DNA of 64,000 bases from Saccharopolyspora ipomoeae (lineage in GTDB: Bacteria; Actinomycetota; Actinomycetes; Mycobacteriales; Pseudonocardiaceae), in assembly GCF_029952525.1 (NCBI RefSeq), contig NZ_JASAOF010000015.1, positions 1 through 64,000 of the forward strand, written 5' to 3'. How positions within the stretch are numbered: the stretch's first letter is position 1; each line of letters opens with the position of its first letter. The position numbers and the translations under genes were made by a program. Of the stretch, positions 10,031 through 47,727 are shown piece after piece. The notes under the pieces were generated by a model. That model made no database searches. It was not told the DNA's origin and was given only the letters and a program-made list of their open reading frames with translations.

Positions 10031-10065
10031 CGAGCGACTCCTTCGTTGATCTTCGAACTGTGGTT

Positions 10066-33805: not shown

Positions 33806-34040
33806 GAGAACTCGGACTCCCGGCTGACTCGCTGCACCCCTCAGCGGGCTGCGGTCGATCTGCTCACGCCCTGGCCATCGCCGACCGCCACCGCGCGCCA
33901 CGAAAACACCGCTACGCCAACGACGAAGACGGAGCACTAGCGAGTGGGCGCTGCCGGCCCCTCCTGGGCGGTCGAGGTGCTGCGTCGCCGGTGCACCGAG
34001 GCGCATTCCACGGCAAAAGCACGGCGGCGATCTTGAAAAG

Positions 34041-34110
34041 AAGAACCCCAGGCCTTGTGACCTGGGGTTTTGGTGGGCCGCCAGGGGATCGAACCCTGAA
34101 CCCGCGGATT
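34041..34110. repeat. Left attachment-site repeat (attL), tRNA-Lys 3' remnant
   Basis: 70 bp matching 45676-45744 at all but one inserted T in the loop of the CCCCAGG/CCTGGGG terminator hairpin. It includes the last part of tRNA-Lys up to the anticodon stem plus its terminator. Beyond 34110 the sequence diverges from the tRNA gene. Confidence 0.93.
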
Positions 34111-34228
34111 GTCGATCCATGATGGACAGTGCTTGTCGTTGTCTGACGGCACCTTTGGTGAGCTGCGTGGATGGCGATTTGGAAGTTCGCCTTGCCTGGC
34201 GTCATTTGCCGTCATCTGCGGGTGGTTC

Positions 34229-34240
34229 TTGGCAATTAAT
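34229..34240 (+). other. Candidate integrase arm-type site, left end
   Basis: TTGGCAATTAAT here recurs in the same orientation at 45642-45653, at the end of int. Both lie close to the att repeats (about 120 bp inside the left, 23 bp inside the right), a layout expected of integrase arm-binding sites. Confidence 0.4.
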
Positions 34241-34568
34241 CGGCGACTTCTGCTGTCCCTTGCCGTGGTTTGACGGCCTTCGCGGGGACAAGTTGCGTGA
34301 CCACCAGGCCGGGCTTGGCGGAGCGGTTCGTGAGTTCGAAGGTGGCGAGCGCCCACCAGTCGCCCACGCAGGTCTGGTGCCAAGCTAGCAGGATGCCGGG
34401 GACGGTGGCTGAGATGTCGATGCCGCCCGCTCGTACGCGGAGCGGGGTGTTGCCGTAGCCGACGTCGCGTTGAGGTGGGAGGGCCTGTACCAGGTGGCCC
34501 CAGATGGGTTGCGGGGTGTCCGGCCGTCGCCGTGTGCCCTGCCAGCCATCGTCACCCTCGCTCGCCAC
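34236..34568 (-). CDS. Hypothetical AICE protein, 110 aa
   Basis: I do not recognise the family. The C-terminal 70 residues look like folded protein (IWGHLVQALPPQRDVGYGNT ... VPGILLAWHQTCVGDWWALA ... LVVTQLVPAKAVKPR), while the first 30 are basic and disordered. GTG at 34568 is a guess; no clear Shine-Dalgarno is visible and the frame is open well upstream. It sits next to attL, transcribed toward the end of the element. Codon bias is weaker than in the core genome, as for several genes in this part of the element. Confidence 0.5.
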   Translation of the reverse strand: MASEGDDGWQGTRRRPDTPQPIWGHLVQALPPQRDVGYGNTPLRVRAGGIDISATVPGILLAWHQTCVGDWWALATFELTNRSAKPGLVVTQLVPAKAVKPRQGTAEVAD

Positions 34569-34836
34569 CTGGTGCCCGCCCCGACGTGAAGTTTGGTCGG
34601 GTCGGCCAGAGAGGTGCAGCGGCCGACCCGCGCCGAGCTTTCTGGATCTTCCCCATCCTTCAGTCCGACGCCCCGAGAGTAGAACACACGTGCGAATGAT
34701 CGCCAGTCCGTAAAGCTCGCAGGAGGCGCAGCCGCCACACGAATAATGGTCGGACTTCAGGGGCGAGCTACATGGGCTACACGGTGTCAGCGCGAGCAGC
34801 TGCAAGGCTGGGGCAAGGGCGAGCACACTGGCAGCC

Positions 34837-35637
34837 ATGGACATGCCTCGTGGGCGCTCATTTGCGTGGCTGGTGACGCACCGACCGCTTGTTGTCGGCG
34901 TTGCGGTGCTGCTCCCACTCGCGGCGTGTGCGGTGCTCAGCGTCTTCCGCGACAGCGTTCCGAACACTAGTTCCGCCCTGGGCCTAGTTCTGCTCATCGT
35001 CGCAGCGGCCTCCACTGGTATCAGATCGGCGGGCCTGCTCGCGGCGTTGTCGAGCGCGGTCTGGTTCGACTTCTTCCTCACCGAGCCGTACAACCGGTTC
35101 GCCATCACTGACCAGGCCGACATCGAAACCGCTGCTCTGCTCATGCTCGTCGGGGCTGCGGTCAGCGAGATAGCACTGTGGGGTCGACGCCAACAAGCCC
35201 GTGCAAGCCTCGAGCAGGGCTACCTGGACGGCGTGCTCAGGACCGCTGCGGCGGTAAGCGCTGGCCAGTCCTCCACTGAATCGCTGATCGAGCACGTCTG
35301 CGGACAGATCGTTGAGCTCTTGCAAATCGATCGCTGCCGGTTCGATCCCGGCGACGGCCCCGTGCTTGCCACGATCGAGGCCGACGGAACCGTCAAATAC
35401 AACGCCCACCCGCTAAATGTCAGGCGTCTGGGCCTCCCGACCGACACGGAGATCGAGCTCGTGGTCCAAAGCCACGGCGCCATTCACGGCCGATTTCTAC
35501 TCACTGCCGCCACCAGCGTCGTCAGGCCATCACAGCAGCAGCTGCGCGTCGCGGTCACCCTCGCCAACCAGGTGGGTGTCGCGCTCGCAACCAACACCGA
35601 CGACGGCAACGAGGGCCAGCCGAGCACCAGCTCATGA
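34837..35637 (+). CDS. DUF4118/GAF-like membrane sensor protein, 266 aa
   Basis: Four membrane helices in the first 110 residues (LVVGVAVLLPLAACAVLSVF; LGLVLLIVAAASTGI; LLAALSSAVWFDFFLTEPYN; ALLMLVGAAVSEIALWG) match DUF4118, the membrane module of KdpD-type kinases, including the conserved FDFFLTEPYNRF. A GAF-like domain follows (about 125-255: LIEHVCGQIVELLQIDRCRF). There is no kinase domain. It may be a truncated sensor or an independent signalling protein carried as cargo. ATG at 34837. A ~590-bp stretch without a called gene follows, holding the long inverted repeat. Confidence 0.8.
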   Translation: MDMPRGRSFAWLVTHRPLVVGVAVLLPLAACAVLSVFRDSVPNTSSALGLVLLIVAAASTGIRSAGLLAALSSAVWFDFFLTEPYNRFAITDQADIETAALLMLVGAAVSEIALWGRRQQARASLEQGYLDGVLRTAAAVSAGQSSTESLIEHVCGQIVELLQIDRCRFDPGDGPVLATIEADGTVKYNAHPLNVRRLGLPTDTEIELVVQSHGAIHGRFLLTAATSVVRPSQQQLRVAVTLANQVGVALATNTDDGNEGQPSTSS

Positions 35638-35955
35638 ACGGTAGTCCGCACCCAGGAAACCCACTGCGGTTCGAACGCCGTCCGCACGCAAAGCAGCGGC
35701 GCAATTGAAGACACCCGAGATTGTCGCCACCGCCGTGATCAGGTTTCCGAGCCATTGCCATTGAGGTCCCATGATCGGCAACCTAGCGGTGACCACAAGC
35801 CGGTGAGCACCTTCGCGGCCGACACTTTCGTACTCGCTGGAGCGGTAAGGCGACCACCTCGCGAGCGCGCCCAGCACTGTTCCTTGAGTTTGCCCAGGTG
35901 AGCGATGGCCTGCGGCAGGGAAGCCGCGGTTGGCTTGGTCGGCTTCGGGCGTGCT
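35638..35955. other. 318-bp stretch without a supported gene
   Basis: Between the DUF4118 gene and the long inverted repeat. Short open frames exist on both strands but none shows consistent codon bias, a Shine-Dalgarno or a recognisable product. No repeats or strong hairpins are seen in it. Confidence 0.6.
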
Positions 35956-36159
35956 CCTGCGGGGCCGCCTGCCACCGCTGGCGTCAGGGTGCGGCTGCCG
36001 ACCTTTCCGCTTGCGCCCGGTCGCGGCGTTGGCCTGCCGGGACCGGTGAGCGCAGCGAGCCGCACGCCCGGCCGGCCAACGACCGCTTGACCGGGCTCGC
36101 ATACAGGAAGGTCGGCAGCTCCACCCTGGCTCGCATACAGCGGTAGGCGGCCCCGCAGG
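35956..36159. repeat. 204-bp imperfect inverted repeat (long hairpin) in the AICE
   Basis: Left arm 35956-36041 pairs with right arm 36067-36159 around a 25-base loop in seven matched blocks: CCTGCGGGGCCGCCT / 36145-36159, ACCGCTG / 36138-36144, CAGGGTG / 36122-36128, GCTGCCGACCTT / 36108-36119, CCCGGTC / 36089-36095, GTTGGCC / 36074-36080, GCCGGG / 36067-36072. Gaps between blocks are small. GGCTCGCATACAG occurs twice in the right arm. Single-strand replication origin, structured RNA, or foldback MITE remnant are possibilities. Confidence 0.85.
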
Positions 36160-36228
36160 GGCCGCCCTTGATGAAGTAGAGAAAGTTTAAACACGCGGAC
36201 CAGAACCGCAGGCCAGAAGGCTGCGGGT

Positions 36229-36429
36229 TCAGTTGACGACGCCGTAGCAGAAGACTCGAAGGTGAGCGTGCTCGACGTGCCATTCCATGCAGTCGATGCC
36301 CGTTGATCCGAGGTCCGCGAGAACCCTCCCGCACGCCTCGCCTCCGATGGGGCACGTCCACCAGGTGCGCTCGTCGATGACGACCACGCCGAGGTCCAGT
36401 CGCAGGCTCCCCACTTTGATCTCCGCCAC
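36229..36429 (-). CDS. Small AICE protein, 66 aa, unknown
   Basis: Reads MAEIKVGSLRLDLGVVVIDE then RTWWTCPIGGEACGRVLADL; contains four cysteines (two in TCPIGGEACG) and a WHVEHAHLRVFCYGVV end, suggesting a compact metal-binding or disulfide fold. Codon third positions are GC-rich. GTG at 36429 is chosen because TACGAT lies about six bases upstream, a leaderless arrangement; the frame is open to 36534. Divergent from the HTH gene at 36525. No family recognised. Confidence 0.6.
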   Translation of the reverse strand: MAEIKVGSLRLDLGVVVIDERTWWTCPIGGEACGRVLADLGSTGIDCMEWHVEHAHLRVFCYGVVN

Positions 36430-36524
36430 GCGACAATCGTACGTAAACGCGACATACGCGGGTATAGGTAGGTAGCCGCGACATTCGACTGGCTTAGCGT
36501 CGAAGTGCGGGCGAACGTAGGCGA

Positions 36525-36716
36525 GTGGCCTCAAACTACGTCTCGACTGGCGAAGCGGCGAAAGCGATCGGCGTGGACCGACGCACGCTGCAGCGGTGGG
36601 CGGCTGAGGGGGCCGTTGAACCGGCCTTGGTGACGAACGGTGGTCACCAGCGGTGGGATGTCGAAGACCTGAAGGAACAGCTGCGCCAGAAGCGTCGTTC
36701 CGACAAGGGCCAGTAG
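36525..36716 (+). CDS. MerR-type helix-turn-helix protein (excisionase-like), 63 aa
   Basis: A single winged HTH: YVSTGEAAKAIGVDRRTLQR WAAEGAVEPA, then GGHQRWDVEDLKEQLRQKRR. It matches the HTH_17/MerR excisionase fold, as used for recombination directionality or small regulators. A second such protein, the true Xis beside int, is at 44275, so this one is more likely a regulator of nearby AICE genes. GTG at 36525; Shine-Dalgarno weak. It converges on the glycosyltransferase gene, with a hairpin between. Confidence 0.78.
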   Translation: MASNYVSTGEAAKAIGVDRRTLQRWAAEGAVEPALVTNGGHQRWDVEDLKEQLRQKRRSDKGQ

Positions 36717-36730
36717 CCCGGATAGCAGAA

Positions 36731-36760
36731 ACGGCGCCGCTCGGTAGCGAACGACGCCGT
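36731..36760. terminator. Hairpin between convergent AICE genes
   Basis: ACGGCG (36731-36736) pairs with CGCCGT (36755-36760), enclosing a second small hairpin CGCT-CGGT-AGCG (36738-36749). It lies between the HTH gene (ends 36716) and the glycosyltransferase gene (ends 36778). Confidence 0.5.
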
Positions 36761-36777
36761 CTCAGGTTGGTGCTCGG

Positions 36778-37683
36778 TCAGGTTGCGTTGTTTCCGTCGA
36801 TGCAGCGACGCAGTTCATCGAGAGACCTCTTCAGGAGCGCACGTTCGAAGTCCTGCGGGTCGTCCTCGTCCGGCCGGTACTCGGCCATCTTCTCGTGGAC
36901 GTTGTCGTACCACTGCCGCAACTTGCTTGCGCCATCCTCGGCCAATCGCCCGTCGGCCAATGCGTGCTGGATGACCACTTCGAGCTCCTGCGCCATCAGG
37001 TCCGGCTTAGGGCGCTGCGGGTTGACCCAGTCGTCGGCCAGTACCGGGCGAAGTCGAGCTGCTTGCCGATTCCAGTGGAACAGCAGCTCCAGGTCCACCG
37101 TGAAGTCATCGGGCAGCTCGGTCGGCCAAAGCTCCCGCACTGCAGCACGTTGCCCTGACCACGGGGTCGAGCCGACGCGAGGGAGGATCTCGGGGAACAA
37201 GGCTCCGGCCACCGGCGCGAAGAAGCCGTGGAGCCAGAGCTGCGGGTACAACGGGCGCCAGTAGAGATCGGAGACCACCGCGTCCGCGAGACCCTGCAGT
37301 ACGGGCTGAGCGAGAAGCGCGACGAGCGGGGGATTCCCGAAGTACTGCAAGTCGCCATCGATCAGGCAGATGACGTCGCCGTCGGTGGCCGGGACGCCGC
37401 TTGAGATGGCGGCACCCTTCCCTGCGGGCGACTCGACGACCTTCGCACCGGCCTTCGCCGCGAGGTCCGCGGTTTGGTCGGTACACCCACTCGCGCTGAC
37501 GGTGACGTCTCCGTCGACGCCGAGCACCTCAAGGCCAGCGAACGAGTCGGCCACGACCTGCGCGATGGTCTCTTCTTCGTTGTGCGCAGGGATCAAGACA
37601 CTCACGCTCATGTCGCGCTTCGACAGCGTCCGCTCCTCGACGAGCTCGATTCCGAGCGCCGGGTCGATCGAAGGTCGATTCAT
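36778..37683 (-). CDS. GT-A glycosyltransferase, GpgS-like, 301 aa (AICE cargo)
   Basis: Family 2/81-type glycosyltransferase. The nucleotide-sugar fold starts SVSVLIPAHNEEETIAQVV (residues about 26-44); the metal motif is LIDGDLQYF (D-G-D); ESPAGKGAAISSGV matches the GKGEAL region of glucosyl-3-phosphoglycerate synthases, as do ADAVVSDLYWRPL and GALFPEILPRVGSTPWSGQR. Acceptor unknown. Its ATG overlaps the stop of the GntR repressor (ATGA), so repressor and enzyme are made together, which is odd for a metabolic enzyme; in pSAM2 the immunity protein Pif is a comparable repressor-associated gene. A role in surface modification or exclusion is speculation. Confidence 0.82.
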   Translation of the reverse strand: MNRPSIDPALGIELVEERTLSKRDMSVSVLIPAHNEEETIAQVVADSFAGLEVLGVDGDVTVSASGCTDQTADLAAKAGAKVVESPAGKGAAISSGVPATDGDVICLIDGDLQYFGNPPLVALLAQPVLQGLADAVVSDLYWRPLYPQLWLHGFFAPVAGALFPEILPRVGSTPWSGQRAAVRELWPTELPDDFTVDLELLFHWNRQAARLRPVLADDWVNPQRPKPDLMAQELEVVIQHALADGRLAEDGASKLRQWYDNVHEKMAEYRPDEDDPQDFERALLKRSLDELRRCIDGNNAT

Positions 37684-38531
37684 GCGTCACCTGCCGCGTT
37701 CAGCTGCTCAGACGTCCAAGGCCGCAGCTCCTCGGTGACCGTGATTTCGGTGGTGTCAGCCGGATACCGGGCCTCGGAGTACTCCACCACGCGGTCCTGA
37801 GTATCGATCGACCGGCTCAGGACGTGCAGCATGGGAGTTCCGGGGTTCATGCCCCATGCCGCCCGTTCGCTGGGCGTGGGCTGGGCGGAGAACACCGTCC
37901 GCGTGAAGCGGGCGAGCTCGATGCCGACCGTGTAGAGCTGGTGCTGATGGCCGCCGGGCCACGGCTCGTTGTTCTGGTCGAGCAACGCGGGATTGCCCTC
38001 GATGAGGGCGCGCGGGATGTAGGAAACGCTCCAGGAGCACCGCAGTCCGGTTGACTTGTGGACCATCTCGTACACGCGCTGAACCAGCGGAGTGCCTGGC
38101 TCGACACCCAAGATCTCCGCCTGCTCCGCATCGGCCGGGGTCTCCGTGTAGATGGAGCTGGAGTCGGTGTCGTCGATCGAGATGCCGGCCGTTAGCTCGA
38201 TGGCACCGGTCTCCCTGCGCTCTGCTTCAGGTCGGAGGACCAGGTCCTTCTGCTGCTGGGTCCATCCGTCCGAGAGGTAGATGTTGTGCCGCTTCTTTGG
38301 CGCCTGAACGGTCGCGGGCTTACCGCGCCCGCCGGGCACAACCAGGCCCTCGTCGCGCAGGAGCGCGAGCGCGCCCTCAGCCGTCGCCTTGGCCACCTCC
38401 CACTCTGCCGAGATCACGCTGAGGCTCGGCAACGCGTCGCCCGGCTTGAGCTCTCCTGACGCGATCGCCTCCCGTAGGTGGTTGGCAATCCGGTCCCTCA
38501 CCGGGACAAAACCGCTGGTCTCTGGGGTCAT
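37680..38531 (-). CDS. GntR family repressor, KorSA-like, 283 aa
   Basis: GntR/HutC architecture: N-terminal winged helix (VPVRDRIANHLREAIASGEL ... LPSLSVISAEWEVAKATAEG) and a C-terminal UTRA ligand domain (about residues 120-270: SSSIYTETPADAEQAEILGV ... VQRVYEMVHKSTGLRCSWSV). KorSA of pSAM2, from the same family, silences transfer and replication until mating. The ATG at 38531 is about 85 bases from the operator array, and the transfer operon starts on the other side, so the protein probably represses both directions. Coupled to the glycosyltransferase gene. A small-molecule inducer is possible given UTRA. Confidence 0.87.
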   Translation of the reverse strand: MTPETSGFVPVRDRIANHLREAIASGELKPGDALPSLSVISAEWEVAKATAEGALALLRDEGLVVPGGRGKPATVQAPKKRHNIYLSDGWTQQQKDLVLRPEAERRETGAIELTAGISIDDTDSSSIYTETPADAEQAEILGVEPGTPLVQRVYEMVHKSTGLRCSWSVSYIPRALIEGNPALLDQNNEPWPGGHQHQLYTVGIELARFTRTVFSAQPTPSERAAWGMNPGTPMLHVLSRSIDTQDRVVEYSEARYPADTTEITVTEELRPWTSEQLNAAGDA

Positions 38532-38559
38532 ACGGCCATTAGACCACATCGCTTCCTAG

Positions 38560-38642
38560 TTTCCTAGGAAACCCCCTTGCGGATCGTTCGTCGGTCGGGT
38601 TAGAGTGATCCCAACATTCCTAGGAAACTAGGAACCTAGGAA
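38560..38642. promoter_or_regulatory. Promoter and operator array between the GntR gene and the transfer operon
   Basis: Operator 1 is the 12-bp palindrome TTTCCTAGGAAA (38560-38571). A plus-strand promoter follows: TTGCGG (38577-38582), 18 bases, TAGAGT (38601-38606). Operator 2 (38617-38642) is three CTAGGAA units in phase, two as CCTAGGAA. So the same motif brackets the promoter on both sides, fitting repression by the adjacent GntR protein. Confidence 0.8.
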
Positions 38643-38663
38643 CCATCTAGCGGAGGTAAGACA

Positions 38664-39023
38664 GTGCGGAACATCCCGGTCAACCTGCAGGGTCACAAGC
38701 TCATGATCACCGAGGCGCCGACGCTGAAGATGTTCGAGAACGACCACGGCGTTCAGGAGGTCGTGACCGACCGGCAGGGGGTTCAGCAGTTCGTGGTCTC
38801 GCTGTTCGTCAAGCGCAAGGCCCAGCCCGGCGAGTACGCGGGCAAGGGTGAGGAGATCAAGGTGACCCTGACCGCCGACCCCGGCGAGGGCTTCGAGGAG
38901 GGCACCTACGTCGAGCTGATCGACGCGACGGTCAGCTACTGGGAGCGCAACGGTCGCTCGGGTCTGTCCTTCCGGGCCAACGGCATGACCCCGCTCGGCG
39001 CGACGGTCTCGGCCGCAGCCTGA
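38664..39023 (+). CDS. Conserved AICE protein, 119 aa
   Basis: First gene behind the repressed promoter. Soluble, beta-rich, no signal peptide: MRNIPVNLQGHKLMITEAPT ... FVVSLFVKRKAQPGEYAGKG ... TYVELIDATVSYWERNGRSG. Proteins of this look are common in AICEs and Streptomyces plasmids upstream of tra; an OB-like single-strand-DNA-binding role would fit, but I cannot show it. GTG at 38664 has a GGAGG Shine-Dalgarno eight bases upstream. High GC3 supports coding. Confidence 0.8.
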   Translation: MRNIPVNLQGHKLMITEAPTLKMFENDHGVQEVVTDRQGVQQFVVSLFVKRKAQPGEYAGKGEEIKVTLTADPGEGFEEGTYVELIDATVSYWERNGRSGLSFRANGMTPLGATVSAAA

Positions 39024-39217
39024 TCGAGCCACCCATTCCGACCGTTTCTTTCTGATTCTTTTAAGCCGAATCCGGCTGCTTGTTGTTTGAGAATTCCATA
39101 GTGGGCCGAGCTATGCCCAAAACCGGCGGAATGTGTCGTCGGTTGGGCTTTATTGACCCCCGGCCGTCTGCGGATGTTCCGGGGGTCTTTATGGCCTTCG
39201 GGAAAGGAGATTTGGAA
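39024..39217. other. 194-bp AT-richer spacer before the micro-gene chain
   Basis: Contains GTCTGCGGATGTTCCGGGGG next to an earlier CCCCCGGCCGTC, forming a possible hairpin (about 39157-39186). Base composition is more AT-rich than the rest of the window. No gene is supported. Confidence 0.4.
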
Positions 39218-39319
39218 ATGTCGCTCAAGTACTGCCCGGCGTGCCACTGCGACAAGTGGCGCTACCAGCACACGCACGACCAGTACTGCTTGGACCGAGA
39301 GTGGGTGGTGTTCCTGTGA
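39218..39319 (+). CDS. Micro-protein with zinc-ribbon-like cysteines, 33 aa
   Basis: MSLKYCPACHCDKWRYQHTH followed by DQYCLDREWVVFL. Four cysteines (C6, C9, C11, C24) and two histidines could hold a metal. ATG at 39218 has AAAGGAGA ten bases upstream. Its TGA overlaps the GTG of the next gene (GTGA), a sign of coupling and hence of real translation. Too short for a family match. Confidence 0.65.
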   Translation: MSLKYCPACHCDKWRYQHTHDQYCLDREWVVFL

Positions 39320-39549
39320 ACACGCTGCAGCGGGACCAGGCGCTGGAGGACCTTCGTCGGCTGTCCACAGAGCTCACGGAGGCATTCGCGACCGCAGGTG
39401 ATGCGGCGTACTCGGTGGATGTGCCCGGTGGCCCGACCGCGTGCGGGGCGGACATGCGCGAGGTGACGGGCCAGCTGCTGGCGTCGCTTCAGATCGTAGT
39501 GACCGTCATTCGCAGGGTTGAAGAGCAGGAGGACGAGTCCGATGAATGA
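39316..39549 (+). CDS. Small helical AICE protein, 77 aa
   Basis: A mostly helical protein (MNTLQRDQALEDLRRLSTEL ... REVTGQLLASLQIVVTVIRR) with an acidic end EEQEDESDE. The GTG at 39316 overlaps the upstream stop, and its own stop overlaps the next ATG, so it is part of a translationally coupled chain. Function unknown; similar small helical proteins are frequent between korSA and traSA in AICEs. Confidence 0.7.
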   Translation: MNTLQRDQALEDLRRLSTELTEAFATAGDAAYSVDVPGGPTACGADMREVTGQLLASLQIVVTVIRRVEEQEDESDE

Positions 39550-39604
39550 CCTGTTCGATTCCTCGTTCGGTTTCCACGGTTCGGGCTGCCTCGGCGGCCG
39601 GTGA
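39542..39604 (+). CDS. Possible 20-aa micro-ORF
   Basis: MNDLFDSSFGFHGSGCLGGR, starting 8 bases before the previous gene's stop ends. No Shine-Dalgarno of its own; expression would depend on coupling. Could be a chance frame. Confidence 0.35.
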   Translation: MNDLFDSSFGFHGSGCLGGR

Positions 39605-39652
39605 TCAGATCTTCCCGGGATTTCCTCGGGCGAAAAGGAAAGGTGGTTGCAG

Positions 39653-39901
39653 GTGGAGGTTACGAAGCAGCTGTTCCGGCGCAATTCGCGCGGAGTCAAG
39701 CGGCTGTCGACGATCGGTTCGCTGATGGATCAGCTGAACCAGGACGTGAACAAGGTCGAGTTCCTCGACGGCGAGTTCGTCGAGGACCGGCACTACGCGG
39801 AGGCCCAGGAGCTGGCCGCTGCGGTGGCGAAGGCGGCGGACGCGGTGCGTGAGGGCATCGCCGAGCACGGTGGATCGAGTGTTGCGAAGGAGTACAAGTA
39901 A
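39653..39901 (+). CDS. Small AICE protein, 82 aa
   Basis: Starts MEVTKQLFRRNSRGVKRLST with a basic N-terminus, then an acidic and alanine-rich helical part (EFVEDRHYAEAQELAAAVAK AADAVREGIAEH). GTG at 39653 follows AAGGAAAGG at good spacing; a TTG at 39647 is possible. Its TAA overlaps the next ATG (TAATG). Unknown function. Confidence 0.7.
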   Translation: MEVTKQLFRRNSRGVKRLSTIGSLMDQLNQDVNKVEFLDGEFVEDRHYAEAQELAAAVAKAADAVREGIAEHGGSSVAKEYK

Positions 39902-40080
39902 TGGCCAATGCAGACGGTGTGACCGGCACGGTTCGCGAGATCGACGCGACCATGCTGGAGCTGACCAAGACGGTGACCAACTTCGGCGTTCCGAAGGGCC
40001 TCGGTGGTCCGCTGAACCAGCTGAAGCGGGCGGTGGGCGACCTGGTGGCCCACCTGGAGATGTCGCAGCGCAGAAGCTAA
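39901..40080 (+). CDS. Small AICE protein, 59 aa
   Basis: MANADGVTGTVREIDATMLE, then LTKTVTNFGVPKGLGGPLNQ and a helical end LKRAVGDLVAHLEMSQRRS. Starts on the last base of the upstream stop, so it is coupled, and ends 22 bases before a strong intrinsic terminator that closes this unit. Codon bias is clearly coding. No family recognised. Confidence 0.7.
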   Translation: MANADGVTGTVREIDATMLELTKTVTNFGVPKGLGGPLNQLKRAVGDLVAHLEMSQRRS

Positions 40081-40102
40081 CCGCACAACCCCAAGCACGG
40101 CA

Positions 40103-40142
40103 GGGCGTCGGATTCCCAGAACGGGAGTCCGACGCCCTTTTT
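40103..40142 (+). terminator. Intrinsic terminator with T-run
   Basis: 15-bp stem GGGCGTCGGATTCCC (40103-40117) / GGGAGTCCGACGCCC (40123-40137) with one wobble, followed by TTTTT. It separates the small-gene unit from the transfer gene. Confidence 0.9.
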
Positions 40143-40161
40143 CATGAAAGGGCAGGCAGTC

Positions 40162-41637
40162 ATGCGAGACACGCGAGTGGGCACGGAACGGACTCCGGCG
40201 CGGGTGGTCGGCGGCTGGATGCTGCGGCACCCCCGGACGATGGGCAGCACGACGGCGGTGGGCACGGCGGGCGTGACGCTCGGCTACCAGACCGTTCTGT
40301 GGGCTGCGGGGATCGCGGTGTTGGCCGGTGCCTCGTGGAGGCTGCTGGACGCCCCGACCTTCGACCGCTTCGCCGGACGGCTCGTGCGGGCCTGGTGGAG
40401 ACGCTGGGTCATCTACCAGCGCCAATGGATGCGCGTGGTTGCCTCCTGCGGGTTGGTCACTTCCGACCACCGCGGTGATCAGCTGGTACCGAAGCTGGTC
40501 GCGGTCCGCTCGAACTGGGTGTGGGATTCGCTGCACATCCGCATGGCCAAAGGCCAGGAGCCCGAGGACTACGGGCAGGCGCTCGACCGGCTGGCGAACT
40601 CCTTCAAGGCGCAGGCCGCGTCGATGCGCATCCTCAAGCCCGGCAAGATCGCCCTGGACTTCCAGCGGCGCGAGCCGTTCAACGAGATGGTGATCCCGCT
40701 TCCCGCGATGCCGGAATCGGTGGACGCGGTGGACCTGCGCAAGCTGGAGATCGGCCGGACCGAATTCGGCCGGCCTTTCCACCTCGACTTGGTCAAGCGG
40801 GACATCCACGTGCTGTTGGCGGGCGAGACCGGCGCGGGCAAGGGCTCGTGGCTGTGGGGCATCCAGCGCGCTCTGGCACCGATGATCCGGGCCGGTCATG
40901 TCCGGCTGTGGGTGATCGACCCCAAGGGCGGCATGGAACTCGGCGGCGGCCGGGAGATGTATCACCGCTTCGCCGACTCCGACCGCGCCGGACTGGCGCT
41001 GATGCGGGAGTACGTCCAGACGCTGGACGAGCGCAAGTTCGAACTCGGCCGCCAGGGCATCCGCAACGCGTCCCCGTCCCGGGAAACCCCGCTTGACGTG
41101 CTGATCTGCGACGAGCTGGCCGCGATGACCGCCTACACCGACCGGGACATCCGCATGGAGTTCCACCAGCTGCTGTCCAAGGGACTCACGCAGTTCCGCG
41201 CGGTCGGCGGACGGATCATCGCCGCGACACAGGAGCCCACCAAGGACGTCGTCCCGATGCGTGGGCTGTTCCCCACCAAGATCGCGCTCCGGGTCGATTC
41301 CGCCTCGTACGTGGACATGTGCCTCGGCGAAGGGATGCGGGACCTCGGCGCGTTCGCCGACAAGATCCCCACCTACCTCGCCGGAGTGGCCTACGCCAAG
41401 AACGACGGGCGCAAAGAACCCCAGCGCGTCCGGGCCGCTTTCAGCACCGATGACGACATCGCCGAGCTGGTGGCCTTCTGCACCGAGCTCAACAACGTGA
41501 CCCCGATCCGCAAGGAGGTCGAGCTGCCGGACGGCACGGTCACCAACCCCTACGACGTCGACTTCGAGGAGTTCGAGGACGACGAGCTCGAAGAGATCGA
41601 GCACTTCGAGGGCGAAGACGACGAAGAGATCGCCTGA
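40162..41637 (+). CDS. traSA: FtsK/SpoIIIE-type DNA translocase, conjugal transfer protein TraSA, 491 aa
   Basis: Single-protein pump that moves double-stranded AICE DNA between mycelia. Two membrane helices (about residues 33-60) are followed by a linker and the motor: Walker A GETGAGKGS (about 222-230), Walker B LDVLICDELAAM (about 312-323) and the FtsK-type GGRIIAATQEPTKDV. The acidic C-terminus (EEFEDDELEEIEHFEGEDDE) may be regulatory; the usual FtsK gamma DNA-recognition domain is not evident. ATG at 40162 has AAAGGG nine bases upstream; ATG at 40144 is within the terminator's edge. First gene after the terminator. Confidence 0.9.
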   Translation: MRDTRVGTERTPARVVGGWMLRHPRTMGSTTAVGTAGVTLGYQTVLWAAGIAVLAGASWRLLDAPTFDRFAGRLVRAWWRRWVIYQRQWMRVVASCGLVTSDHRGDQLVPKLVAVRSNWVWDSLHIRMAKGQEPEDYGQALDRLANSFKAQAASMRILKPGKIALDFQRREPFNEMVIPLPAMPESVDAVDLRKLEIGRTEFGRPFHLDLVKRDIHVLLAGETGAGKGSWLWGIQRALAPMIRAGHVRLWVIDPKGGMELGGGREMYHRFADSDRAGLALMREYVQTLDERKFELGRQGIRNASPSRETPLDVLICDELAAMTAYTDRDIRMEFHQLLSKGLTQFRAVGGRIIAATQEPTKDVVPMRGLFPTKIALRVDSASYVDMCLGEGMRDLGAFADKIPTYLAGVAYAKNDGRKEPQRVRAAFSTDDDIAELVAFCTELNNVTPIRKEVELPDGTVTNPYDVDFEEFEDDELEEIEHFEGEDDEEIA

Positions 41638-41662
41638 CCATTCACAGTAAGGAGATTCACCC

Positions 41663-41848
41663 ATGCACATCGTCCACGTTGAACTGTCCGGTAAGGGCGT
41701 GCTGATCAGCATCGGCGTCCTGGCCTTCGTGCTGGCCGTGCTGGCCCTGGTCTGGCTGGTGCTGAACCCGGCCGTCGCGATCGGCATCGGGATCGGCCTG
41801 GTGCTGCTCGTGCGGGGTCTGATCGTGCTGTTCAGCCCGGCGAAGTAG
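41663..41848 (+). CDS. Small membrane protein (Spd-like), 61 aa
   Basis: Two transmembrane helices occupy most of the chain (GVLISIGVLAFVLAVLALVW and LNPAVAIGIGIGLVLLVRGL) with a short N-terminal MHIVHVELSGK and SPAK end. Its size and position between the transfer gene and the DUF2637 gene match spread (spd) genes, which help plasmid movement along the recipient mycelium. ATG at 41663 follows AAGGAGATT. Function inferred from context. Confidence 0.75.
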   Translation: MHIVHVELSGKGVLISIGVLAFVLAVLALVWLVLNPAVAIGIGIGLVLLVRGLIVLFSPAK

Positions 41849-41856
41849 GAGGCATC

Positions 41857-42783
41857 GTGTCCGAACACGACCAGCCCGAGGCCACCGGCAACGACGGGCG
41901 GACGCGGCGGGTGCGCAAGCTCGGAGACCGGATCTCCGAGGCCCGCCGCCTGCGGGGCCTGATCCGTGACCCTGATCTTCAGGCCGTGGAGATGGAGCGC
42001 AACGGACGGCGCACCCTCGCCGGGCTGTGGTTCTTCCTGGCGCTGGGCCTGGTGTTCACCACCACCGGTGTGCAGCAGTTCCTCGCCGGGAAGACCACAC
42101 CCGCCGATCCCCTGTGGTGGGCCGCGTGGACCGTGGAACCGATGTTCGCCGGGTTGTTGATCGTGTTGCTCAACTTCGAGGCGGTCATCCTCTCCCACGG
42201 AGTCGAGCCCGATCACCACTGGTGGTCCCGCCTCAAAAGGGTGTTGCTGACCTCGACGCTGCTGATGAACGTCATCCCGCAACTGCTCCCGCTGCTGACG
42301 GGACGATGGGCGGACTTCAACGCGGGCTCGGCGGTCGTGCATGCGATCATCCCGGTCATCGTCTACGGCATCGCCGAAGTCATCCCGGTCATCCAAGCCC
42401 GGCAACGGCAGGTCATCTTGGCCGCCTACGCCGCCGCCGATCCACCCGCACCGGAACAACCGGTGGATCCGGGACCGGCCGAAGTGCCGGAACGACCGGA
42501 GGTCTCGGAGCTGCCGGAAAGGCCGGCCACCGCGTCCACTGAACGTCCGCGACCGGCGGAACGACCGGACACCACCTCGGTCATCGGGAAATCGATGAAC
42601 CTCCCGGCTGGCGTCCTGCAGGGCATTTCCGACGCCTGGGAGCTGGCGAATGCCGAAGGCCGGGAGTTCACCGCGGCTGATGTCCGCCAGGTTGTCCGCC
42701 TGCCGGAACCGGTGGCCGCGCAGATCGTCGCCGATCTCAACGCCGCCGAAAAGCCCGTCACCAACGGCCACCCCGTGGCCTGA
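41857..42783 (+). CDS. DUF2637-type spread membrane protein, 308 aa
   Basis: Membrane protein with about four helices (LAGLWFFLALGLVFTTTGVQ; AAWTVEPMFAGLLIVLLNFE; LLMNVIPQLLPLLTG; AVVHAIIPVIVYGIAEVIPV), the DUF2637 arrangement found in Streptomyces plasmid Spd proteins. A long proline/glutamate-rich linker (PPAPEQPVDPGPAEVPERPE) and a C-terminal helical domain (LQGISDAWELANAEGREFTA ADVRQVV) follow. GTG at 41857 follows AGGAGG. Probably helps intramycelial spread with TraSA. Confidence 0.83.
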   Translation: MSEHDQPEATGNDGRTRRVRKLGDRISEARRLRGLIRDPDLQAVEMERNGRRTLAGLWFFLALGLVFTTTGVQQFLAGKTTPADPLWWAAWTVEPMFAGLLIVLLNFEAVILSHGVEPDHHWWSRLKRVLLTSTLLMNVIPQLLPLLTGRWADFNAGSAVVHAIIPVIVYGIAEVIPVIQARQRQVILAAYAAADPPAPEQPVDPGPAEVPERPEVSELPERPATASTERPRPAERPDTTSVIGKSMNLPAGVLQGISDAWELANAEGREFTAADVRQVVRLPEPVAAQIVADLNAAEKPVTNGHPVA

Positions 42784-42824
42784 TGTGACGACATCCCACA
42801 ACTGAAGATCGCGAGTTCAACCCC

Positions 42825-42848
42825 TGCTCGGCGGGCATCCACCGAGCA
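42825..42848. other. Hairpin upstream of repSA
   Basis: TGCTCGG (42825-42831) pairs with CCGAGCA (42842-42848) over ten bases, 50 bases before the repSA start. Could end the spd message or regulate rep translation. Confidence 0.4.
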
Positions 42849-42898
42849 CGGGAACGACCTCCGTGGGTGCTCCGCCGAGCCCTCTTCTGGGAGGTCAC

Positions 42899-44272
42899 AT
42901 GGCATTGCCCGAAGTCCCGGCGGTGGACCGCCTCGCCCGGCGGCTCCAGTCCCCGGACTACCAGCAGTGGCGCTCGATGGTGGAAGCTACCGGCGGATGC
43001 GCCCACCCGGTCCGGCTGACCGGACACTGGATGCTCACCGACAAGACCACCGGCGCGCTGCTGTCCAAGCCCGACGGCACCCCGGCCCTGAAGTCCGGGC
43101 ACCTGTTCGCCCCTTGCGGCAACCGCCGCGAGTCGGTCTGCCCCGCGTGCTCGGACCGCTACGCTGCCGACGCCTTCCACCTCGTGCGTGCCGGGATGTC
43201 CGGTGGCTCCAAGGGCGTGCCGGTCACCGTGGCCGACAAACCGCGGTTGTTCGTCACCCTGACCGCACCCTCGTTCGGGCCGGTCCACAACCGCCGGACC
43301 TCGGCCAACGGCAAGCGCGTGCCGTGCCGATGCGGTCGCTTCCACCACGAACACGACCCGGCCATCGGCCAGCCCGTCGACCCGAGCGGCTACGACTACA
43401 CCGGCCACGTCCTCTGGCAGGCCCACGCCGGGAAGCTGTGGAACCGCTTCACCATCTACCTCCGGCGACACATCGCCCGTGCGGCCGGCATCCCGGTGAA
43501 GAGCCTCAAGGACCACGCCCGGCTGTCGTACGCCAAGGTCGCCGAGTTCCAGAAGCGCGGCGTCATCCACTTCCACGCGATGATCCGCCTCGACGGCCCG
43601 GAGGGCGCGGCCGACGCGACTCCGTCCTGGGCCACCGCTGATCTGCTCACCGACGCCGTTCACGCCGCACACGCCGCGACCGGCGTCGAAGCGCCCGAGA
43701 TCGACAGCACCACGCGGCTGCTGACTTGGGGAGAGCAGATCGACGTCCGACCGATCCGGGCAGTGGACGCCCACCAGGTCGAAGACGACCAGGGCGCCAT
43801 CACCGATGACCGGCTGGCCTCCTACGTCGCCAAGTACGCCACCAAGGGCACCGGGAAGTCCGAAGCCGCCGATCGGCCGATCCGATCCCGCGAACACATC
43901 GAGCTCCTGGAAGCCAGCGAGCACCACCGGCAGATCATGCGCACCGCGTGGGACCTTGGCGGGCTGGAGGACCTCGACGGTCTCAACCTGCGGCGCTGGT
44001 GCCACATGCTCGCGTTCCGCGGGCACTTCCTGTCCAAGTCCCAGCGCTACTCCACCACGTTCAAGCGCATCCGGGGCGACCGCCAGATCTGGCGGCTGGA
44101 GCAGAACCTCGACGAACTCGGCGTCACCGCCGACTCGGTGGCCGTGGTCAACCACTGGGAGATGACCAGCATCGGCCACCGCGATCCCGAGGAGCAGGAA
44201 CTCGCCCTCGCCATCGCCGACCGCAAGCGCCAAGCCCGAAAAGACCGCTACGCCAACGAAAGGAAGGACTGA
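42899..44272 (+). CDS. repSA: Replication initiator RepSA (rolling-circle), 457 aa
   Basis: AICE replication protein that nicks the double-strand origin after excision. N-terminal zinc-binding part: GHLFAPCGNRRESVCPACSD and VPCRCGRFHHEHDP. HUH-type catalysis is suggested by the HxH in RGVIHFHAMIRLDG and the downstream SYVAKYATKG (Y with K four on). The rest matches Streptomyces AICE RepSA in length and order. ATG at 42899 has GGGAGG six bases upstream. It lies between the spd genes and xis, as in pSAM2. Its origin is often inside or near the gene; I could not place it. Confidence 0.88.
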   Translation: MALPEVPAVDRLARRLQSPDYQQWRSMVEATGGCAHPVRLTGHWMLTDKTTGALLSKPDGTPALKSGHLFAPCGNRRESVCPACSDRYAADAFHLVRAGMSGGSKGVPVTVADKPRLFVTLTAPSFGPVHNRRTSANGKRVPCRCGRFHHEHDPAIGQPVDPSGYDYTGHVLWQAHAGKLWNRFTIYLRRHIARAAGIPVKSLKDHARLSYAKVAEFQKRGVIHFHAMIRLDGPEGAADATPSWATADLLTDAVHAAHAATGVEAPEIDSTTRLLTWGEQIDVRPIRAVDAHQVEDDQGAITDDRLASYVAKYATKGTGKSEAADRPIRSREHIELLEASEHHRQIMRTAWDLGGLEDLDGLNLRRWCHMLAFRGHFLSKSQRYSTTFKRIRGDRQIWRLEQNLDELGVTADSVAVVNHWEMTSIGHRDPEEQELALAIADRKRQARKDRYANERKD

Positions 44273-44274
44273 CT

Positions 44275-44454
44275 ATGCGCAACCTGTGGGGAATCGACGA
44301 CGTTGCCAGCTACCTCGGTGTGCCGGTCGGCACCCTCTACCAGTGGCGTAGCCGGGGATATGGTCCGACCGGACGCAAGATCGGAAAGTACGTCCGGTTC
44401 AAGCCCGAGGACGTCGAGAACTGGTTCGAGTCTCAGGCTGCGGGGGTGATCTGA
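44275..44454 (+). CDS. xis: Excisionase Xis, 59 aa
   Basis: MerR-like HTH_17 protein: LWGIDDVASYLGVPVGTLYQ WRSRGYGPTGRKIGKYVRF followed by KPEDVENWFES. It directs the integrase toward excision. It starts two bases after repSA and ends one base before int, the canonical rep-xis-int operon of AICEs. Confidence 0.88.
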   Translation: MRNLWGIDDVASYLGVPVGTLYQWRSRGYGPTGRKIGKYVRFKPEDVENWFESQAAGVI

Positions 44455-44455
44455 G

Positions 44456-45652
44456 ATGGCAGGTCGTCTGCCGCTTCCGCTGGGCACGATGGGTGAGATC
44501 TCGGTCAAGCACGTCGGGAAGTCCTGGTCGGCAAGAGCCTGGTACCGGCGTGAAGACGGAACATATGCCGACGTGCGTCGTCGCGGCCGGACCAAGGAGC
44601 TGGCTCGGCAGGCTGTCCGGGATGCGGTCAAGGACTTGGTCCCGGTGTCCGACGGCACCGATCTCACTGCCACATCGCTGTTCGCCGACGCTGCCCAAGC
44701 GTGGCTCGACCAGTTCAGGAAGGACGCTGAGAACGGTACGTACTCCCTGACCTCACTGGACACCTACGAGAACGTGTACGAGAACCACATCAAGCCAGGT
44801 CTCGGTGAGCTGCGGCTGTATGAGGTGAAGACGCCGGTGGTCAACAAGATCTGCCAGGCCAAGCTCAAGGACAACAGCTTGACCTTGGCCAAGCTCGTCA
44901 AGGCCGTGATCAGCAACATCATGACCTTTGCGATTCAAGCTGGGGCGGTTGAGACCAACCCGACGAAGGGCATCGCCGCCCTCTCCGAGCGTAGAGCCAA
45001 GATCAAGCGGAAGAAGCCTAGGGCCCTGACCAAGGACGAACTGAGCGATCTGCTCAAGATCCTTGACCAAGATGAGAAGGCGAAGAAGCGGGACCTGCCG
45101 GACCTGGTGCGTTTCTTCATCGCGACGGGTGAGCGAGCGGGTGAGGCTCTGGGTGCTCACTGGGAGGACTTCGATCCTGAGGCGAAAAAGCTGCGGATGA
45201 GCGGGAACCTGATCCGTGCACGTGGCAAGGGTGCCTTGCGCAACGACGGGAAGACCGACGGCTCGGCGCGGGACATCGCGCTCCCTGACTGGGCGGTGAA
45301 CATGCTCCGGGAGCGCGCCGAGCAACTGGGTGAGGTTGATCCAGGCAAGCCGATCTTCGTCAACACGAAGGGTGGGTACCTCAACGCGTCGAACGTCTAC
45401 AACCGGACGTGGGCACCGTTCCGGACCCGCGCTGGCTACGAGTGGGTGACCTTCCACACGCTGCGCAAGACGGTCGCCACGCTGCTGGACGAAGCGGGCC
45501 TGACGGCTCGCCAGGTGGCGGACCTGCTGGGCCACTCGCGGGTGTCGATGACCCAAGACGTGTACTTCGGCCGGGGGCAGCAGTCCCGTGCCAGTGCCGA
45601 AGCCCTGGCCTTCGTGGTACCCATCGAGGGTCCGGGGAAAGTTGGCAATTAA
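44456..45652 (+). CDS. int: Site-specific tyrosine integrase, 398 aa
   Basis: Integrates the AICE into tRNA-Lys. N-terminal arm-binding and core-binding (SAM-like) domains are followed by the catalytic domain with R in ATGERAGEALGAHW, K nearby, H-x-x-R in TFHTLRKTVATLL, H in LLGHSRVSMTQDV and the nucleophile tyrosine in DVYFGRG. All catalytic residues are present, so the element should still move. It ends 24 bases from the attR repeat, and its last codons include the TTGGCAATTAAT arm-site candidate. Confidence 0.93.
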   Translation: MAGRLPLPLGTMGEISVKHVGKSWSARAWYRREDGTYADVRRRGRTKELARQAVRDAVKDLVPVSDGTDLTATSLFADAAQAWLDQFRKDAENGTYSLTSLDTYENVYENHIKPGLGELRLYEVKTPVVNKICQAKLKDNSLTLAKLVKAVISNIMTFAIQAGAVETNPTKGIAALSERRAKIKRKKPRALTKDELSDLLKILDQDEKAKKRDLPDLVRFFIATGERAGEALGAHWEDFDPEAKKLRMSGNLIRARGKGALRNDGKTDGSARDIALPDWAVNMLRERAEQLGEVDPGKPIFVNTKGGYLNASNVYNRTWAPFRTRAGYEWVTFHTLRKTVATLLDEAGLTARQVADLLGHSRVSMTQDVYFGRGQQSRASAEALAFVVPIEGPGKVGN

Positions 45653-45659
45653 TTGGCAA
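45642..45659 (+). other. Candidate integrase arm-type sites, right end
   Basis: TTGGCAATTAAT (45642-45653) runs into a second TTGGCAAT (45652-45659). The 12-mer is shared with 34229-34240 near the left end. It overlaps the int stop codon. Confidence 0.4.
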
Positions 45660-45675
45660 TCGGGCCTCGGCAACA

Positions 45676-45744
45676 AAGAACCCCAGGCCTGTGACCTGGG
45701 GTTTTGGTGGGCCGCCAGGGGATCGAACCCTGAACCCGCGGATT
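45676..45744. repeat. Right attachment-site repeat (attR), within tRNA-Lys
   Basis: 69 bp matching 34041-34110 with one missing T. It spans the tRNA terminator and the tRNA 3' portion from CCA to the anticodon stem. Strand exchange must lie within it. Confidence 0.93.
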
Positions 45745-45780
45745 AAAAGTCCGCTGCTCTGCCAGTTGAGCTAACGGCCC
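45705..45780 (-). tRNA. tRNA-Lys (anticodon UUU)
   Basis: 76 bases on the minus strand including an encoded CCA. Acceptor stem GGGCCGT pairs with GCGGCCC; D-arm TTAGCTCAACTGGCAGAGC; anticodon loop CTTTTAA with TTT anticodon; T-arm with GGTTCGATCC. The 3' half is supplied by the element's attachment repeat, so the gene stays intact after integration. A CCCCAGG/CCTGGGG hairpin with a short T-rich tail on the minus strand terminates it. Confidence 0.95.
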
Positions 45781-45875
45781 GCGTGCCCAGGCTACAAGGT
45801 CCGGATGATCTCCGTGGCCCGTGGTCGCGGCAATTCGGACCGAAGTCACACCACACCGACCGAGGAGGGCGACTC

Positions 45876-46391
45876 GTGACCTACCTGTACCGGCTCGCGA
45901 CGCGCGCGGACTTGCCCGCGATCGTCGGCATCTACAACTCGGTGATCCCGGACCGCTCGGCGACCTGCGACCTCGACCCGGTCACCGTCGAATCGCGCGA
46001 GGACTGGTTCGCCAAGTCGGATCCCCAGCGCTACCCGGTCTGGGTGGGGCACGAGCCGCCAAACCCGGATGTCGTGACCGGGTACGTGTCTCTGGAGCCG
46101 TTCCTCAACGGTCGTCCCGGCTACGACGTCACCGCCGACCTCGCGCTCTACCTGCATGCCGATCACCGCGGCAGCGGCCAAGGCGCGTGCCTGCTGCGCC
46201 ATGCGATCGCGCAAGCCCCCGAACTCGGCTTCCGGAACATCGCGACCACGATCTTCGCCTCGAACCAGCGCAGTCTCCGCCTCTTCCGCGCTCACGGCTT
46301 CCAGGAGTGGGGACGGCTCCCGGCCGTCGCCGATCTCGACGGCCGCTCCGAAGACGTCGTCTTCGTCGGCCTCCCGCTGGCTCAGGCGTGA
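45876..46391 (+). CDS. GNAT acetyltransferase, phosphinothricin-acetyltransferase-like, 171 aa
   Basis: Single GNAT domain of the Pat/Bar group: RLATRADLPAIVGIYNSVIP at the N-terminus, a SREDWFAKSDPQRYPVWVGH segment, and acetyl-CoA loop LHADHRGSGQGACLLRHAIA. The group acetylates phosphinothricin, methionine sulfoximine or other amino acids; the exact substrate is unknown. GTG at 45876 has GAGGAGGG upstream. First chromosomal gene right of the AICE, transcribed away from it. Confidence 0.85.
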   Translation: MTYLYRLATRADLPAIVGIYNSVIPDRSATCDLDPVTVESREDWFAKSDPQRYPVWVGHEPPNPDVVTGYVSLEPFLNGRPGYDVTADLALYLHADHRGSGQGACLLRHAIAQAPELGFRNIATTIFASNQRSLRLFRAHGFQEWGRLPAVADLDGRSEDVVFVGLPLAQA

Positions 46392-46539
46392 CCCGCGGTC
46401 GGGAACCTGCGGTATTCGCCCCGACGGTTCCCGTGGGATTCGTCGGTCGGGTTGTTGACCTCGACTTCGTCCTGGAGAAGGGTCGGGGGTGCGGTCTCGG
46501 CGGCCGTGTTCTTCAGGGTTTGTCGACATGGGGAGAGCT

Positions 46540-47727
46540 GTGAGCGGGATCCTTGCGACGCACACCGGAAGTCTGATCCGTCCGAGCGAGTTGTTGTCGT
46601 TCCTGTCCGCGAAGGCCGGGGGTGCCGACGTGGATGAGGAAGCCTATGGGGCGTGTCTGGTCAAGTCCGTCGACCACGTCGTGCGCAGGCAGGTGGAGGC
46701 GGGCATCGACGTCGTCGACGACGGTGAGATGGGCAAGGCCAGCTGGATCACCTACCTCTACGAGCGCATCAGTGGCCTGGAATCCCGGCCGATCGAGCTC
46801 GACGGTCCGAGCATGCTGCCGCCGAGCCGCGACCGGCAGGCGTTCCCCGGCGCCTACGCCGAGCTCGACGCGCTCGACGAGGCAGCCACCCGCAAGAGCA
46901 ACTCGCAGGCCGACGAGCGGGAACCAGCGGCGTGGTTCTGCACCGGCCCGCTGCGCTACGACCGGACCGCCATCGATCGCGACATCGCGAACCTGAAAGC
47001 CGCTGTGGCGCAGCACGAAGGAGTCGAGGGCTTCCTGCCGGTCGTCGCTCCTGCCAGCGCCTACTGGCTGACCGACGAGCACTACGACTCCGACGAGGAG
47101 TTCGTGTTCGCGCTGGCCGACGCGCTCAAGGAGGAGTACCGGGCGATCGTCGACAGCGGCCTGATGCTGCAGGTCGACGACGCGGTGCTGATGCACGAGT
47201 GCGACACGATCCTGGCCCGAGGTGGCACCTACGACGACTACCGGCGGTGGGCGGAGCTGCGCGTCCGCGCGCTCAACCACGCGCTGGAAGGACTTCCGGA
47301 GGAACGCGTCCGGTATCACGTGTGCTTCGGCAGCTGGCACGGTCCGCACGCGTTCGACCCGCCGCTGCGCGACGTCGTCGACCTGATCCTGCAGGTCAAC
47401 GCCGGTGCCTACGCGATGGAGCAGGCCAACCCGCGGCACGAGCACGAGTGGCGGGTGTGGGAGGACGTGCAGCTGCCGGACGGCAAGAAGCTCATCCCGG
47501 GCGTGGTCACGCACCACACCAACGTCGTCGAGCACCCGGAACTGGTGGCGCAGCGGCTGATCCGGCTCGCCGGGGTCGTGGGGCGGGACAACGTGCTGGC
47601 CGGGACCGACTGCGGGTTCGCGCAGGGCGCGTTCGTGCACCGGGTGCACGAGGAGATCCAGTGGGCGAAGCTCTCGGCGCTCGCCGAGGGCGCGCGGCTG
47701 GCCTCGGAACACCTCTGGAGCCGCTGA
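46540..47727 (+). CDS. Cobalamin-independent methionine synthase family protein (MetE C-terminal-like), 395 aa
   Basis: Single TIM-barrel like the catalytic half of MetE. Zinc-ligand regions are seen as YHVCFGSWHGPHAF and LAGTDCGFAQGAFVH. The N-terminal TGSLIRPSELLSF is the substrate-entry motif. Without the MetE N-terminal barrel it is probably an alternative methyl-transfer or C-S cleavage enzyme; methylcobalamin- or methoxylated-aromatic-linked roles are known for such short forms. GTG at 46540 has GGGGAG upstream; ATG at 46528 is possible. A second, distinct member is at 50936. Confidence 0.85.
   Translation: MSGILATHTGSLIRPSELLSFLSAKAGGADVDEEAYGACLVKSVDHVVRRQVEAGIDVVDDGEMGKASWITYLYERISGLESRPIELDGPSMLPPSRDRQAFPGAYAELDALDEAATRKSNSQADEREPAAWFCTGPLRYDRTAIDRDIANLKAAVAQHEGVEGFLPVVAPASAYWLTDEHYDSDEEFVFALADALKEEYRAIVDSGLMLQVDDAVLMHECDTILARGGTYDDYRRWAELRVRALNHALEGLPEERVRYHVCFGSWHGPHAFDPPLRDVVDLILQVNAGAYAMEQANPRHEHEWRVWEDVQLPDGKKLIPGVVTHHTNVVEHPELVAQRLIRLAGVVGRDNVLAGTDCGFAQGAFVHRVHEEIQWAKLSALAEGARLASEHLWSR

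Follow-up and report, generated by a model that had tools for sequence, protein, structure and literature searches.

A probable rolling-circle plus origin with a covarying 204-nt hairpin in a RepSA AICE of Saccharopolyspora ipomoeae

The AICE and its genes

The window analysed here, a stretch of 64,000 nucleotides from Saccharopolyspora ipomoeae, contains an AICE at positions 34041–45744. The element is bounded by attL (34041–34110) and attR (45676–45744), which are the two copies of a 70-nt direct repeat (98.6% identical) matching the 3' end of a tRNA-Lys gene (anticodon ttt). The tRNA gene is located at 45705–45780. Genes on the + strand encode an FtsK/SpoIIIE-family protein (TraB-like, 40144–41637), the RepSA rolling-circle initiator (42863–44272; PF20199, E 3.5e-154), an HTH_17 protein (Xis-like, 44272–44454), and a tyrosine integrase (44456–45652). 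A cargo gene of the DUF4118 family is found at 34837–35637, between attL and the region described below. A large hairpin had been predicted inside an AICE, and this placement proved right: the hairpin is flanked by the tRNA-Lys repeats, with the RepSA, FtsK/TraB-like, HTH/Xis-like, and integrase genes lying within them.

Fold of the giant hairpin

The giant hairpin spans 35956–36159 of the + strand (204 nt), exactly as predicted. Both strands were folded, and the fold is far beyond chance. As DNA, the hairpin folds with -92.8 kcal/mol (z -9.9), and none of 200 dinucleotide shuffles folded as well. As RNA, the + strand folds with -164.7 kcal/mol (z -12.5) and the - strand with -164.1 kcal/mol (z -12.0), values that were equaled by none of 200 dinucleotide shuffles in either case. 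The 25-base loop described in the original prediction is present in the DNA centroid. A DNA search of phage and plasmid records with 35900–36250 gave no match.

The conserved unit around the hairpin

The hairpin had been described correctly but incompletely, as it is only the middle of a conserved unit that runs from about 35793 to the end of a tail at 36194. Conservation ends sharply after ...AACAC (window position 36194) and extends approximately 350–400 bases upstream of the tail. A blastn search with 35940–36175 matched 20 of 61 genomes, and the exact tail pattern was found in 22 of 297 family genomes, with the source genome included in both counts. When fetched Pseudonocardiaceae loci were scanned for the tail with up to 6 mismatches allowed, the tail and its sharp 3' edge were common to 50 motif matches (window included). 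A strongly folded stretch (z below -3) precedes the tail in 43 of these matches, and the remainder are remnants or changed copies.

The upstream part of the unit is modular and consists of either module A1 or a strongly folded module, A2; both are present at locus L185. In the window, A1 occupies 35793–35879 of the + strand and contains the conserved blocks CCACAAGCCGGTGAGCAC (35793–35810), GGTAAGGCGACCACC (35844–35858), and GCGCCCAGCACTG (35867–35879). It was defined from an alignment of 24 copies, which gave no stable consensus fold. Module A2 (about 210 bases, GTCGACCTGGCG...GAGGTCGATGGGGTGAG) was found upstream of the origin at L091, L093, L094, L108, L109, L133, L134, L181, and L184–L187. 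It is also present in AICEs with a distant RepSA. At one further locus (L124, G014:C122), a hairpin fragment stops at CTTGATGA and, judged by eye, enters the apparent last codons of an integrase gene.

The nick stem-loop and its tail

A second, smaller structure is found at the 3' edge of the hairpin. The nick stem-loop, GGCGGCCCC-GCA-GGGGCCGCC, occupies 36146–36166 of the + strand and has a perfect 9-bp stem. The nick region (nic), which corresponds to the tail CTTGATGAAGTAGAGAAAGTTTAAACAC (36167–36194, + strand), starts with CTTGATG at 36167, immediately 3' of the stem-loop. On the + strand of the AICE, CTTGAT occurs only at this position. Rolling-circle origins of the pC194/phiX174 type have CTTG|A as their nick core, and a nick is predicted in the corresponding core of the tail, between G36170 and A36171. 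At 17 of 38 other sites CTTGA directly adjoins a perfect stem of 6 bp or more, which holds for 1.6% of 1,900 random positions. The core of the tail matches CTTGATA, which PMC10378824 gives as the nick site of the Rep_1 dso, and PMC3218068 describes RepSA as phiX174/pC194-like and the nick site of pSAM2 as belonging to the pC194 family.

Four copies have no CTTGATG or tail. One is next to a RepSA gene at a contig edge, perhaps as the result of an assembly fault (L136), one is next to a broken RepSA (L193), one has no RepSA in view (L122), and at one no RepSA was detected (L125).

The 5' arm of the nick stem-loop doubles as the outer stem of the giant hairpin, with bases 36146–36159 being shared, and the same arrangement was found at other sites. 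Because the same arm serves both structures, they are mutually exclusive. Forcing the nick stem-loop costs 9.0 of 166 kcal/mol in an RNA fold or 7.3 of 93 kcal/mol in a DNA fold, and this small difference in energy makes a switch between the two folds possible.

Other sites were also considered. CTTGGGG inside rep (43725) was rejected as an alternative nick site, with the CTTGG of the window not being conserved in the 19 relatives that have letters at this codon. A TraB-cognate (clt-like) site would be compatible with the element distances but is disfavoured, as the motif occurs where no TraB similar to that of the window was detected.

Place and strand relative to the AICE genes

The suggested link to rolling-circle replication is well supported by the fixed orientation of the unit. 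With the proteins of the window as probes, Rep was found downstream of the unit and on the same strand at 21 of 21 loci, and the TraB-like gene and orf119 each at 24 of 24. Among 22 Saccharopolyspora genomes, 19 full-length RepSA genes were identified, 15 of which have the unit upstream on the contig (two as partial copies, both in G005). For three genes the contig ends too soon, in one case (G015:C21) about 3 bases from the tail end, and for one (G015:C14) no unit was seen in the 10 kb upstream before the contig end. The spacing between origin and rep is 3–12 kb. Within the family, element distance over 20 loci correlates with Rep (r 0.77) and TraB (r 0.74), and the partial correlations are 0.51 and 0.40, respectively.

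Lone origin sites, at which no RepSA was detected, were also observed (L306, 2055–3334; L115, about 9843–10216; L088, L300, and L301), and the sequence fetched around each of them includes a tRNA gene, an integrase, or both. A Pfam scan of 30 chosen proteins around eight lone sites revealed mostly ordinary chromosomal families, two integrases, and no RepSA. Such sites may mark AICEs in decay, or satellites that would depend on the Rep of a helper.

The motif across the class and on plasmids

With up to 3 mismatches allowed, the near-exact tail pattern was found in three of 394 class genomes, namely the source genome and two others, and in both others it lies upstream of RepSA and on its strand. 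To reach further, a generalised motif (a looser stem-loop and tail) was built from the window and three far sites. Of 40 sampled class-wide loci, 33 carry it on the strand of RepSA, none carries it on the other strand, and 7 have no site at the threshold; its score was reached by 2 of 54 shuffled loci. Some of these loci are not independent, as L226 and L227 were fetched by pattern match and L230, L240, and L245 helped to define the motif; when they are set aside the figure is 28 of 35, with L262 doubtful. The class-wide stretches consist of 84% upstream sequence, so that an upstream location is partly forced by what was fetched and strand, rather than side, is the evidence at these loci. In 14 further RepSA loci (L181–L194, several on short contigs), the threshold was reached on the Rep strand in 6. 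L186 reaches it on the wrong strand and has a sub-threshold stem-loop with CTTGATCC...GTAGAGAA on its Rep strand. No site was seen at L188, or in 10 kb at L189.

A search of 296 genomes with a more stringent 16-base pattern, one that the site in the window itself does not fit, yielded 36 sites in 28 genomes, and a search with the reversed pattern yielded none. Twenty-four of the 36 sites lie 2.9–11.6 kb upstream of RepSA on the same strand, and one more is beside RepSA. For 9 sites no RepSA was detected within 16–18 kb downstream, and 2 are on truncated contigs.

RepSA regions were also found in plasmid records (20 records matched), and the motif is upstream and on the same strand in all 6 regions examined; one of them, L311, attains the score of 20 on its opposite strand as well. 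No RepSA was found in the phage records searched. Two nick-like sites precede a single RepSA gene at L312 (5495 and 7449) and likewise at L313 (3657 and 5543). A 27.8-kb circular plasmid record of Streptomyces formicae (L309, NZ_CP071873.1) contains one AICE-like gene set in repeated form, its nick sites being separated by 10,384 bases, and appears to be a multimer of an AICE after excision. When two 4-kb segments spaced by one unit were compared in this record, they were not exactly identical.

Covariation and the strand under selection

In an alignment of 16 long-hairpin sequences, 96.7% of the cells pair. The alignment contains 52 double-change cells, compared to 16.9 in shuffles (0/500), and has a covariation score of 0.205, compared to 0.119 (0/500). 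Double changes affect 12 pairs, compared to 9.0 in shuffles, and 9 of 500 shuffles reach 12. The number of pair types in the same alignment showed no excess, as 362 of 500 shuffles reach its value. When the structure was slid as a control, the covariation collapsed. The short-hairpin alignment A2 has weaker covariation than the long-hairpin alignment. For module A2, 12 sequences gave 44 pairs, 6 of which have double changes.

On the + strand of the long hairpin, GT wobbles occur in 11 pairs and AC in 2, a modest difference from one alignment whose structure was predicted without wobble pairs. The corresponding counts in the short-hairpin alignment (3 and 2 pairs) gave no strand signal. In the long hairpin, selection seems to act on the single + strand, that is, on the nicked or displaced strand or on an RNA, rather than on a cruciform.

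Association of the giant hairpin with one RepSA clade

The nick stem-loop and the giant hairpin differ in their distribution. For the 215 bases before CTTG, the median z against shuffles is -6.6 in the 50 Pseudonocardiaceae copies and -1.0 at 33 class-wide sites (7 of 33 below -3), compared to -0.7 at 39 random control positions (3 of 39 below -3). Large folds are thus hardly more frequent at class-wide sites than at random positions, which marks the nick stem-loop as the general feature and the giant hairpin as something added to it.

A tree of 76 RepSA proteins placed all 23 giant-hairpin Reps in one 28-row clade with a support of 100/100; two of the 23 (L126 and L136) have only part of the hairpin. 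The other five rows of the clade (L189–L192 and L194) are on contigs that end 0.6–10 kb upstream of Rep, and no site was seen there; because these rows do not carry the giant label, the program infers 6 changes where it would otherwise infer 1. Ten loci with short Rep matches were omitted from the tree, namely L086, L093, L114, L119, and L121, which have the hairpin, and L186, L187, L188, L193, and L298. The giant hairpin is specific to one RepSA clade.

Some hosts have more than one AICE. Host G034 has two AICEs with a distant Rep (34.7% identical), and host G013 has one (35.9% identical). All three elements have the nick stem-loop but lack the giant hairpin (z -0.9, -1.9, and -1.2), and other AICEs in the same two hosts do carry it. 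From the pattern in the clade and these AICEs, it follows that the hairpin goes with the Rep lineage and not with the host.

A candidate double-strand origin

We read the hairpin as part of the double-strand (plus) origin of a RepSA AICE, forming its left and middle portion, with a probability of roughly three in four. Its cognate initiator is presumed to be the RepSA encoded at 42863–44272. The analysis establishes the conserved motif, its strand and position relative to RepSA, the covariation, and the clade distribution; nicking, binding by Rep, and the role of the giant hairpin are inferences. After excision, the origin would be recognised by RepSA, an HUH nuclease, which would cut the + strand at CTTG|A (36170/36171), at the base of the 9-bp stem-loop. 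The 3'-OH would then prime leading-strand synthesis rightwards through the tra-rep-xis-int genes, and the old + strand would be displaced. In one RepSA clade, the region 5' of the stem-loop would have become the 204-nt hairpin, with an outer stem that shares bases with the stem-loop. Points that weigh against this reading are the copies lacking CTTGATG or the tail, the RepSA loci at which no site reached the threshold, the site on the wrong strand at L186, the sites of the 16-base pattern where no RepSA was detected, the distance between origin and rep, and element distances that correlate with TraB about as well as with Rep.

The giant hairpin probably acts on the single-stranded + strand, either in recognition by Rep and regulation of the nick stem-loop or in the start of the lagging strand. 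A more specific proposal is a two-state origin, in which, on the displaced strand, the hairpin keeps the nick stem-loop either open or closed. We put this forward tentatively, and the chances are against it.

The hairpin was originally proposed as a candidate single-strand origin (sso/ssi). The rolling-circle part of this proposal stands, and the sso class is the weaker reading compared to a double-strand origin because the stem-loop and CTTG|A tail are nick-like and occur class-wide with RepSA, while the hairpin follows a RepSA clade. As an sso on the displaced + strand, the hairpin would recruit host RNA polymerase or primase for the lagging strand and would lie just 5' of the dso nick. Excerpts of PMC4595007 and PMC5703833 describe sso elements as structured and orientation-specific, and the very stable fold of the hairpin, the preference for the + strand in its wobble pairs, and its fixed orientation to Rep, the TraB-like gene, and orf119 are consistent with this. 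An sso is read by host factors, however, yet the hairpin is missing beside the distant Reps of G034 and G013, and the near-background folds at the 33 class-wide sites argue against a general need. We therefore regard this role as unlikely for the giant hairpin. By its conservation across Rep types, module A2 would be the better sso candidate.

A structured non-coding RNA transcribed from the + strand, for example one that controls copy number or has another regulatory function, with the tail as its unpaired 3' segment, would account equally well for the excess of double-change cells and the wobble bias. When 34000–47000 was searched with the covariance models of Rfam, the hairpin matched none of the families up to E 1. 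A scan of 35600–36350 gave neither a promoter pattern of the sigma-70 type nor a U-tract terminator pattern, although such a scan has little power in a GC-rich actinomycete. The tail sequence is also conserved in AICEs that lack the giant hairpin, and its core is that of a nick site, which makes the RNA reading very improbable. A foldback or MITE-like transposable element is less probable still, because, despite several copies per genome in some relatives and 19 of 54 fetched loci around copies without any gene similar to the AICE genes of the window, the unit is single-copy in its own genome, recurs elsewhere in AICEs in a place and orientation fixed relative to tra and rep, and at lone-site loci is accompanied by a tRNA gene within the 20 kb fetched in 10 of 15 cases and by an integrase in two (proteins scanned), as decayed AICEs would have.

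Relation to known origins

The double-strand origin proposed here resembles pC194/phiX174-type HUH origins, including that of the AICE pSAM2 (RepSA), in its CTTG|A core, the adjacent stem-loop, and an initiator gene of the RepSA type (PF20199) on the same strand. It differs from them in the overlap of the nick stem-loop with a covarying hairpin of 204 nt and in the distance of 3–12 kb between the site and rep. The nick site of pSAM2 is reported to have been published (te Poele et al. 2008; Hagege 1993). In the literature searched, neither a pSAM2 dso sequence nor an AICE sso was found, and the nick motif may have been published before.

Known single-strand origins with which the hairpin was compared by description include ssoA, ssoU, ssoT, and ssoW of Gram-positive plasmids, sti of pIJ101, and sso1 of ICEBs1. 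Like these, it is a large single-strand fold with a fixed orientation in a rolling-circle element. Unlike these, it is linked to a clade of initiators rather than to the host and is joined to a nick-like motif. Terminal hairpin origins of parvoviruses (AAV) also place a large hairpin beside the nick site of an HUH initiator. The likeness is in outline only, with no homology claimed, and the replicon considered here is circular rather than linear. The locus is therefore ordinary in kind, as a rolling-circle plus origin, and unusual in form, with a 204-nt covarying hairpin that overlaps the nick stem-loop.

Significance

RepSA AICEs are a group of rolling-circle conjugative elements of actinomycetes, and the stem-loop and tail provide a class-wide sequence signature for their likely origin, which allows origins to be located and put to direct test. 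Where sites occur alone, they point to decayed or satellite elements. With the giant hairpin, a rolling-circle nick site would be overlapped by a large structure that covaries, and removal of the hairpin with retention of the stem-loop is predicted to separate nicking from whatever the hairpin adds. If the two-state origin is true, initiation, termination, or the start of the second strand would be coupled to the RepSA of the same clade, and an origin switch would have been gained once in the RepSA family.
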